From an uncultured bacterium (lineage in GTDB: Bacteria > Patescibacteriota > Minisyncoccia > Moranbacterales > UBA2206): a DNA stretch of 45,564 nt. Position numbers and translations under genes: made by a program. Where the stretch lies: assembly GCA_903937035.1 (NCBI GenBank), contig CAIZXS010000021.1, forward strand, positions 1 to 45,564. Direction: 5' to 3'. Below, in pieces: positions 14,357 to 15,486 of the stretch; the first letter of the stretch is position 1, and every line of letters begins with the position of its first letter. Under the pieces are notes generated by a model. The model was not told the DNA's origin, made no database searches, and saw nothing but the letters and a program-made list of their open reading frames with translations.

Positions 14357-15253
14357 CTATTCACCCCAAAGCTTTGTGCTGAGATATTTTTCTCCGCGAT
14401 CAGGAAAAATAACCGCCATTCTTCCGGAGACATTCCGATTGGCTAGTTCGAATGCAGCAAGCATAGCAGCGCCAGAAGACATGCCCACAAAGACTCCTTC
14501 TTCCTTGGCAATTCGCCTTGCCATATCAAAAGCTTTTTCACTTTCAATATTTACAAATTCATCAATCTGATTCTTATCATAAATCGCCGGAACAATCGCT
14601 TCATCCATATTTTTAAGCCCTTGGATATAATGACCTTTTTCTGGGTAGGCACAAACAATTTTTATATTTGGATTATATTCTTTCAAATATTTCCCCACCC
14701 CCATAATCGTACCAGAAGTGCCAATTGAAGAAACAAAATAATCAATTTTTCCATCCATGTCATCCCAAATTTCCTTGGCAGTTGTTTCATAGTGGGCAAT
14801 CTTGTTGTAGACATTAGAAAACTGATCAGGCATGAAATATTTTTCAGGATTGTCTCTCACTAATTCTCTGGCTTTCACGATTGCACCATCTGTCCCCCTT
14901 CTCGCGTCAGTAAGAATTATTTTTGCCCCGAAAGCCTCAAGCATCTTCCTTCTTTCCATTGAAACTGCCGCACTCATTACAATTTCCACCGCATAACCTA
15001 AGACTGTTCCGATCATAGCAATTCCAATCCCGGTATTGCCTGAAGTCGGCTCGATAATAATCCTATCTTTCGTGAGCTCACCGTTCTCAATAGCATGCCC
15101 GAGCATTTTTAGCGCTACCCGGTCTTTAATACTCCCACCCGGATTCTGTCCCTCTAATTTGGCAAAGATTTCTAGATTAGGATTTGGATTGAGTTTGTTG
15201 ATTTTGATAAGCGGAGTATTTCCAATAGTTTCTAAAATATTTTGATAAAGCAT
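14357..15253 (-). CDS. cysK: Cysteine synthase (O-acetylserine sulfhydrylase family)
   Basis: This 298-residue PLP enzyme makes cysteine from O-acetylserine (or O-phosphoserine) and sulfide. The PLP lysine is K43 in GGSIKDR. The substrate loop is TSGNTG at 70-75, and the phosphate-binding glycine loop is GTSGTIMG near 178-185. The C-terminal SSGAA and FPDRGEKY motifs are family hallmarks. Length is normal. A CysM-type or cystathionine beta-synthase-like specificity cannot be excluded from motifs alone. It is the first large gene after a 200-base leader containing a Cys-rich ORF and a terminator, so expression is probably set by cysteine supply. Confidence 0.93.
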   Translation of the reverse strand: MLYQNILETIGNTPLIKINKLNPNPNLEIFAKLEGQNPGGSIKDRVALKMLGHAIENGELTKDRIIIEPTSGNTGIGIAMIGTVLGYAVEIVMSAAVSMERRKMLEAFGAKIILTDARRGTDGAIVKARELVRDNPEKYFMPDQFSNVYNKIAHYETTAKEIWDDMDGKIDYFVSSIGTSGTIMGVGKYLKEYNPNIKIVCAYPEKGHYIQGLKNMDEAIVPAIYDKNQIDEFVNIESEKAFDMARRIAKEEGVFVGMSSGAAMLAAFELANRNVSGRMAVIFPDRGEKYLSTKLWGE

Positions 15254-15281
15254 TATTTTTGATTTAAATTATTATATAAAT

Positions 15282-15303
15282 AAAAATCCCGACTGGTTCG
15301 GGA
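15282..15303 (-). terminator. Attenuator terminator upstream of cysteine synthase
   Basis: Minus-strand TCCCGA and TCGGGA pair across a 5-base loop and are followed by TTTTTA. It sits between the leader ORF stop (15330) and the cysK start (15253), so unless it is bypassed it would stop transcription before cysK. Its 5' arm includes CTCCC (15304-15300), which can alternatively pair with GGGAG (15351-15347) inside the leader ORF. Confidence 0.75.
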
Positions 15304-15329
15304 GTTTCTCAGATCTTTTTTGTTTATCT

Positions 15330-15431
15330 TTAACAGAAAAAAGCTGCTCCCTGCGCAATTAGGTGATTACAGCAACAGCAAAAAAGACTGTTTAGCTGAA
15401 AATTATGAGAATTAGCCTTTTTTGGATTCAT
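15330..15431 (-). CDS. Polycysteine leader peptide of the cysteine synthase gene
   Basis: A 33-codon ORF starts with ATG at 15431 and ends with TAA at 15330. Codons 18-21 are TGC TGT TGC TGT (four consecutive cysteines) and the last sense codon is another TGT, so 5 of 33 residues are Cys. It begins about 20 bases after the predicted transcription start, is followed 27 bases later by an intrinsic terminator, and then by cysK. This is the layout of amino-acid attenuators such as trpL or hisL, with cysteine as the sensed amino acid; polycysteine leader ORFs are known ahead of cysteine genes in mycobacteria. No clear Shine-Dalgarno is seen. An in-frame TAA lies just upstream of the ATG, so this is not the tail of a longer gene. 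Confidence 0.75.
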   Translation of the reverse strand: MNPKKANSHNFQLNSLFCCCCNHLIAQGAAFFC

Positions 15432-15457
15432 TTTTTTATAAGCTTTGACCTGAGATT

Positions 15458-15486
15458 AATATAGCCTAAAATTTGAAGTTAAGCAA
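15458..15486 (-). promoter_or_regulatory. cysK: Promoter of the cysteine synthase leader
   Basis: Minus-strand TTGCTT (15486-15481) and TATATT (15463-15458) are separated by 17 bases. The predicted start is near 15451, giving a leader of about 200 bases that contains the polycysteine ORF and the terminator. Confidence 0.7.

Follow-up and report, generated by a model that had tools for sequence, protein, structure and literature searches.

A very probable cysteine-sensing polycysteine leader upstream of the cysteine synthase gene in Patescibacteria (CPR bacteria)

Transcription attenuators of the trp, his, leu, thr, ilv and phe type carry a leader ORF with a run of regulatory codons; in all of them the antiterminator and the terminator share one segment and the target belongs to the same amino-acid pathway. 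For cysteine, a survey published in 2021 (PMC8632094) predicted the Cys-codon transcription attenuator uORFC-8-2 before cysS in Rhodobacterales, for which attenuation through Cys-tRNA was proposed; it combines a uORF with two tandem Cys codons, a conserved RNA motif and an intrinsic terminator, and occurs in one alphaproteobacterial order. Cys leader peptides were also predicted in Mycobacterium, Propionibacterium and Bifidobacterium, without terminators (Seliverstov et al., 2005, PMC1262725), and PMC13236596 describes the control exerted by mycobacterial polycysteine ORFs (Canestrari et al., 2020, on cysteine-responsive attenuators) as translation attenuation. A first-pass annotation of the DNA studied here had described polycysteine leaders as established in mycobacteria. 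T-box leaders likewise sense uncharged tRNA and control a terminator; there the RNA binds the tRNA directly and no leader peptide is involved. Cysteine attenuation is already known elsewhere, and what is new here is its very probable occurrence in CPR bacteria, where no other example is known to us; a search of the open-access literature found no relevant report of attenuation, a leader peptide, a riboswitch or a T-box in CPR bacteria, which is not proof of absence.

CPR bacteria, most of them uncultured, live on other cells, and to our knowledge next to nothing has been learned of how they regulate their genes. The locus described here lies in a 45.6-kb stretch of DNA (the window, meaning the whole stretch analysed), and the element preceding its cysteine synthase gene is, with high probability, a ribosome-mediated transcription attenuator sensing cysteinyl-tRNA. 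The contig belongs to a 1.22-Mb genome (98.7% complete) whose nearest named relative is a Moraniibacteriota MAG (Patescibacteria/CPR) with a cysK 89% identical. The gene product scored 375.5 bits against NCBIfam TIGR01136 (cysKM), above the cut-off for that model and below the cysK and cysM equivalog cut-offs, and its nearest solved chains are cysteine synthases; the name cysK is used for the window gene although only the cysKM subfamily cut-off was passed. Its divergent neighbour is a prfA-like release-factor gene. Despite the presence of a cysteine synthase gene, no match to cysE (serine acetyltransferase, TIGR01172) was found in the genome at E 0.001.

The elements of the leader are listed in Table 1. 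As the first-pass annotation had read, the ORF has 33 codons with four consecutive Cys codons and a final one before the stop (15335-15333), and the T-run of the terminator ends 28 nt before the ATG of cysK. The promoter proposed there is present and is kept as TTGCTT-17-TATAGT in the relative G028, but its -35 box agrees with TTGACA at 3/6 positions only. The predicted 5' UTR is of ~20 nt, and the ORF lacks a clear Shine-Dalgarno sequence. The proposed pairing of GGGAG with CTCCC is also present, in a longer helix that includes CAG:CTG and U6:A6, and the distance from the end of the Cys run to GGGAG (15351-15347) is 17 nt instead of the ~22 first given. The cysK leader is the sole short ORF in the window with at least 3 Cys per 5 codons followed by a terminator. 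The pattern TGYTGYTGYTGY (TGY-x4) has 5 matches in the 1.22-Mb genome, among which the cysK leader alone is leader-like, the other 4 lying in ordinary alternative frames with no leader anatomy. The minimum free energy of the leader is not unusual relative to shuffled sequences (z -1.08), a measure that is uninformative for a switch.

Table 1. Positions of the cysK leader elements in the window.
Feature	Positions	Strand	Evidence
Promoter-like element TTGCTT-17-TATATT	15458..15486	-	sequence; predicted transcript start ~15451
Leader ORF, 33 codons, ATG start, TAA stop, peptide MNPKKANSHNFQLNSLFCCCCNHLIAQGAAFFC	15330..15431	-	
Proposed sensor, 4 consecutive Cys codons TGC TGT TGC TGT	15369..15380	-	sequence
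Antiterminator, GGGAGCAG (15351-15344) and U-run against A-run, CTG and CTCCC (15304-15300)	15300..15351	-	
Intrinsic terminator, stem TCCCGA-ACCAG-TCGGGA (15303-15287) and TTTTT (15286-15282)	15282..15303	-	
cysK (cysK/cysM-type cysteine synthase)	14357..15253	-	Pfam PALP 2.9e-68

The locus carries a Cys-codon leader ORF, an intervening terminator, an antiterminator that shares the 5' arm of the terminator and is mutually exclusive with it, and the geometry of an attenuator. In the proposed mechanism, transcription of the leader by RNA polymerase would proceed together with translation of the 33-codon ORF by a ribosome. If Cys-tRNA is ample, the ribosome would pass the Cys run, reach the end of the ORF and cover the GGGAGCAG region, leaving CTCCC free, so that the terminator would form and a short transcript would end before cysK. 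With scarce Cys-tRNA, the ribosome would stall on the Cys codons, and GGGAGCAG, ~29 nt past the first of them, would stay free to capture the 5' arm of the terminator, whereupon cysK would be transcribed. From leader translation and stalling to the response to cysteine, the function in vivo is what we infer from this arrangement. Such a coupled transcription-translation sensor, read from sequence, would indicate that CPR bacteria monitor their cysteine supply, would predict when cysK is switched on, and would imply transcription-translation coupling in CPR bacteria close enough for attenuation; the natural leaders would be candidates for regulated expression parts in these organisms.

The distribution of cysK in CPR bacteria is patchy: some match at E 0.001 was present in 19/34 genomes of the family, and at E 1e-60 the gene was found in 32/131 genomes of the order, 30/384 of a class sample and 7/380 of a phylum sample. 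A total of 62 CPR cysK loci and 24 cysK loci labelled non-CPR were collected, counts that include related genomes. The check put forward in the first-pass annotation, whether related cysK genes are preceded by a conserved Cys run and terminator, was passed widely: 47/62 CPR cysK loci have an intact Cys-rich leader ORF with a terminator behind it, and among the named carriers are Moraniibacteriota, Komeilibacteria and a Gracilibacteria MAG. At one further locus (L025) the Cys run is present and leader and cysK are both frame-broken, 5/62 (family f9) have a T-box-like leader, and 9/62 have neither leader type, the contig ending 98 nt upstream in one of them. One locus (L093) has two complete modules of Cys leader and terminator in tandem, giving 48 modules in total. 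Under a strict mechanical criterion (at least 3 Cys in 5 codons within 350 nt), a leader was detected at 36/62 CPR cysK loci, at 0/24 cysK loci labelled non-CPR and before 0/63 other genes of the same loci. The curated count of 47 is higher than the mechanical count because leaders with two adjacent Cys codons (e.g. L014 and L017, on position and pairing) and some lying beyond 350 nt were accepted. For L007 and L067, the hairpin downstream of the stop codon was used as terminator in place of automatic picks inside the ORFs, and five terminators of low GC content were entered manually. Four loci labelled non-CPR (L028, L030-L032) fall inside the CPR part of the cysK tree and may be transfers or misbinned contigs. 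As a separate observation, L004, L007, L010, L011, L067, L081 and L086 contain an extra 60-250 nt between terminator and cysK, partly with inverted repeats.

The pairing in which the 5' arm of the terminator (segment 3) engages the post-Cys region (segment 2, located between Cys run and terminator) recurs in most of this set with differing sequences. The segment 2:3 duplex of the window has an energy of -13.5 kcal/mol against a shuffled mean of -7.2 (p=0.017), and the duplex was better than dinucleotide shuffles at p<0.05 in 44/48 modules, upholding the post-Cys pairing that the earlier annotation had proposed; the Fisher combination over the 48 modules is 1.8e-49, a value to which related loci contribute as non-independent observations. 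The pairings that were not significant alone are those of L093 (the module next to cysK), L095, L013 and L085. Among 28 cluster representatives, the summed energy of each leader with its own partner was -443 kcal/mol, compared with -245 +/- 16 for exchanged leaders, a difference of 12 sd, and the lowest sum among 20,000 leader permutations was -322 kcal/mol. The segment 2/3 sequences are GGGAG/CTCCC in the window, CGAGAAAT/ATTTCTCG in genus g15, AGAGTATTT/AAATACTCT in L017 and AGGTTGATTTTT/AAAAATCAACCT in family f49, differing among lineages, and therefore it is complementarity and not sequence that has been kept. The distance from the first Cys codon to the start of segment 2 is 23.6 +/- 3.3 nt (29 nt in the window), against an sd of 14.5 nt for shuffled segments, the smallest in 60 trials being 11.1, whereas the start of segment 2 varies between 32 nt upstream and 10 nt downstream of the stop codon. 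This near-constant spacing is as expected if the ribosome stops at the first Cys codon with segment 2 just beyond its edge. A leader ORF with a stop codon followed by a terminator could also be a small gene in its own right, the Cys-rich peptide (e.g. thiol- or metal-binding) being the product, the hairpin its own terminator and cysK expressed by readthrough. This is very improbable, as outside the Cys run the peptides (~13-33 residues) diverge widely among lineages, the position of the leader relative to cysK is constant, and both the antiterminator pairing and the fixed distance from Cys run to segment 2 would be left unexplained. Since this leader-terminator arrangement is repeated in CPR bacteria with sequences that differ between lineages, cysteine shortage is very probably sensed through stalled ribosomes.

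The behaviour of the attenuator was computed by folding with a blocked footprint that covers the A-site codon, 17 nt on its 5' side and 12 nt on its 3' side, a size taken from the E. coli ribosome. Over the 48 modules, the median predicted probability of the terminator was 0.001 with a ribosome at the first Cys codon, 0.84 with a ribosome at the stop codon and 0.24 without a ribosome, and 44/48 modules changed in the expected direction (terminator more probable at the stop than at the stall). For the window RNA ending at segment 3, the antiterminator was predicted with P=0.98-1.00 for a ribosome at Cys1-4 and 0.00 for a ribosome at the stop. In the full-length window RNA, the terminator still reached P 0.68-0.96 at equilibrium despite the stalled ribosome, and therefore readthrough would require the RNA to be trapped co-transcriptionally in the antiterminator; in G028, by contrast, the predicted switch is complete at equilibrium. 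The switch of the window is weak at equilibrium, and its outcome would depend on the antiterminator forming first. The earlier proposal that stalling at the Cys codons favours antitermination is thus consistent with the folding of most modules and, for the window itself, would apply co-transcriptionally only.

The genes grouped with cysK point to the same signal. cysS, recognised in these operons by its N-terminal motif and not by family search, follows cysK at five Cys-leader loci (L073, L088, L089, L090 and L093), as well as in family f9 and at L029, whereas a dense Cys-run leader was found at 0/31 free-standing cysS genes in CPR bacteria. A tRNA-Cys (GCA) gene lies between terminator and cysK in L073 (2400-2472, -) and just after cysK in L036 (4032-4105, +), in both cases in the same orientation as cysK, and is probably part of the attenuated operon. 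Compared with uORFC-8-2, the CPR leaders have 2-5 Cys codons in place of two, lack a conserved RNA sequence and precede cysK, with cysS present only within the operon. In family f9 (L058, L060, L062, L064 and L066), which is of the same order as the window genome, a T-box-like leader without a Cys leader precedes cysK-cysS. The leader of L060 scored 38.8 bits (E 4.3e-07) against the T-box model, which falls short of the Rfam gathering cut-off, the T-box-like core GTGGAACC(A/G)CG is found in three more f9 leaders, and the T-box-like loci cluster together in the cysK tree. In L058, the specifier region of the leader contains an N gap. Together, the operons with cysS or tRNA-Cys, the T-box-like leader of f9 and the lack of a Cys leader at free-standing cysS fit control by Cys-tRNA.

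The T-box-like family also raises the question of whether a riboswitch or T-box, that is, an RNA binding a ligand or tRNA, controls the terminator elsewhere and the Cys run is incidental, and the antiterminators of G028 and others are indeed predicted to form without any ribosome. There is scarcely any likelihood of this for the window, as an Rfam search of the window gave a match to tRNA but none to a T-box or any other family, no aptamer-like core is conserved among the Cys leaders, and what recurs is the Cys run, spelled with varying codons, and not the RNA sequence.

The 5' ends of the leaders bear on whether transcription or translation is controlled. A promoter score of at least 9 was obtained for 32/48 leaders, compared with 13% of shuffled sequences, and the leaders lack a clear Shine-Dalgarno sequence. 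In 13 CPR leaders, 6-8 nt separate the end of the -10 box from the ATG, and therefore the transcript would start at or beside the ATG, which suggests leaderless transcripts for these 13. In their cysteine codons, their occurrence in Patescibacteria, the lack of a clear Shine-Dalgarno sequence and the probable leaderless state of some, the CPR leaders are unlike the attenuators of the trp, his, leu, thr, ilv and phe type. They resemble the mycobacterial polycysteine leaders, which are likewise short Cys-run ORFs upstream of cysteine genes and are partly leaderless, as some of the CPR leaders may be. By analogy, the leader ribosome might control translation of cysK, with the hairpin incidental, as mycobacterial polycysteine leader ORFs are cited to do in PMC13236596. 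Such translational attenuation is unlikely for the CPR leaders, as a hairpin and T-run lie between leader and cysK in 48/48 modules, the alternative pairing uses an arm of the terminator, and cysK usually starts 20-35 nt or more past the terminator. The mycobacterial leaders have no recognisable terminator (PMC1262725) and, according to PMC13236596, act on translation, whereas the CPR leaders have both terminator and antiterminator.

Among close relatives, the orthologous leaders of G028 (MKKSKVQNFQLASIFCCCCNHLIAQGAAFFC) and G029 (MYPKRQNSQNFRNNLFCCCCNHAIVLGAAFFC) differ from that of the window in length by whole codons with all Cys codons kept, these codons showing one synonymous and zero non-synonymous change, and the terminator and segment 2 are common to all three. 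The first-pass annotation had regarded cysK genes without a Cys-rich leader ORF in close relatives as evidence against an attenuator. Such genes do exist in G030 (L005/L027), in the family member G033, where cysK lies behind another gene, and in a few others, while G028 and G029 retain the leader. G030 belongs to the same genus and has a cysK 87% identical directly behind the divergent prfA; the -10 box, the leader and the terminator are absent there as a single block, with no clear leader copy elsewhere in the genome, and because they were lost together this case was not counted against the mechanism.

On balance, it appears somewhat probable that cysteine supply in Patescibacteria is widely, and perhaps ancestrally, controlled by the polycysteine attenuator, which moves or is lost with cysK as a unit, draws in cysS or tRNA-Cys in some lineages, and has been replaced by a T-box-like leader in one family.

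Two further observations concern the cysK genes themselves. The cysK tree conflicts with taxonomy in places, L017 and L018 (family f1) grouping with L069 (f11) and with L036 of Komeilibacteria, and each of these genes retains a leader, as would be seen if the two moved as a pair. In family f49 (L076-L086), many loci have a gene for a thioredoxin-like protein (WCGPC motif) 600-1300 nt downstream of cysK.
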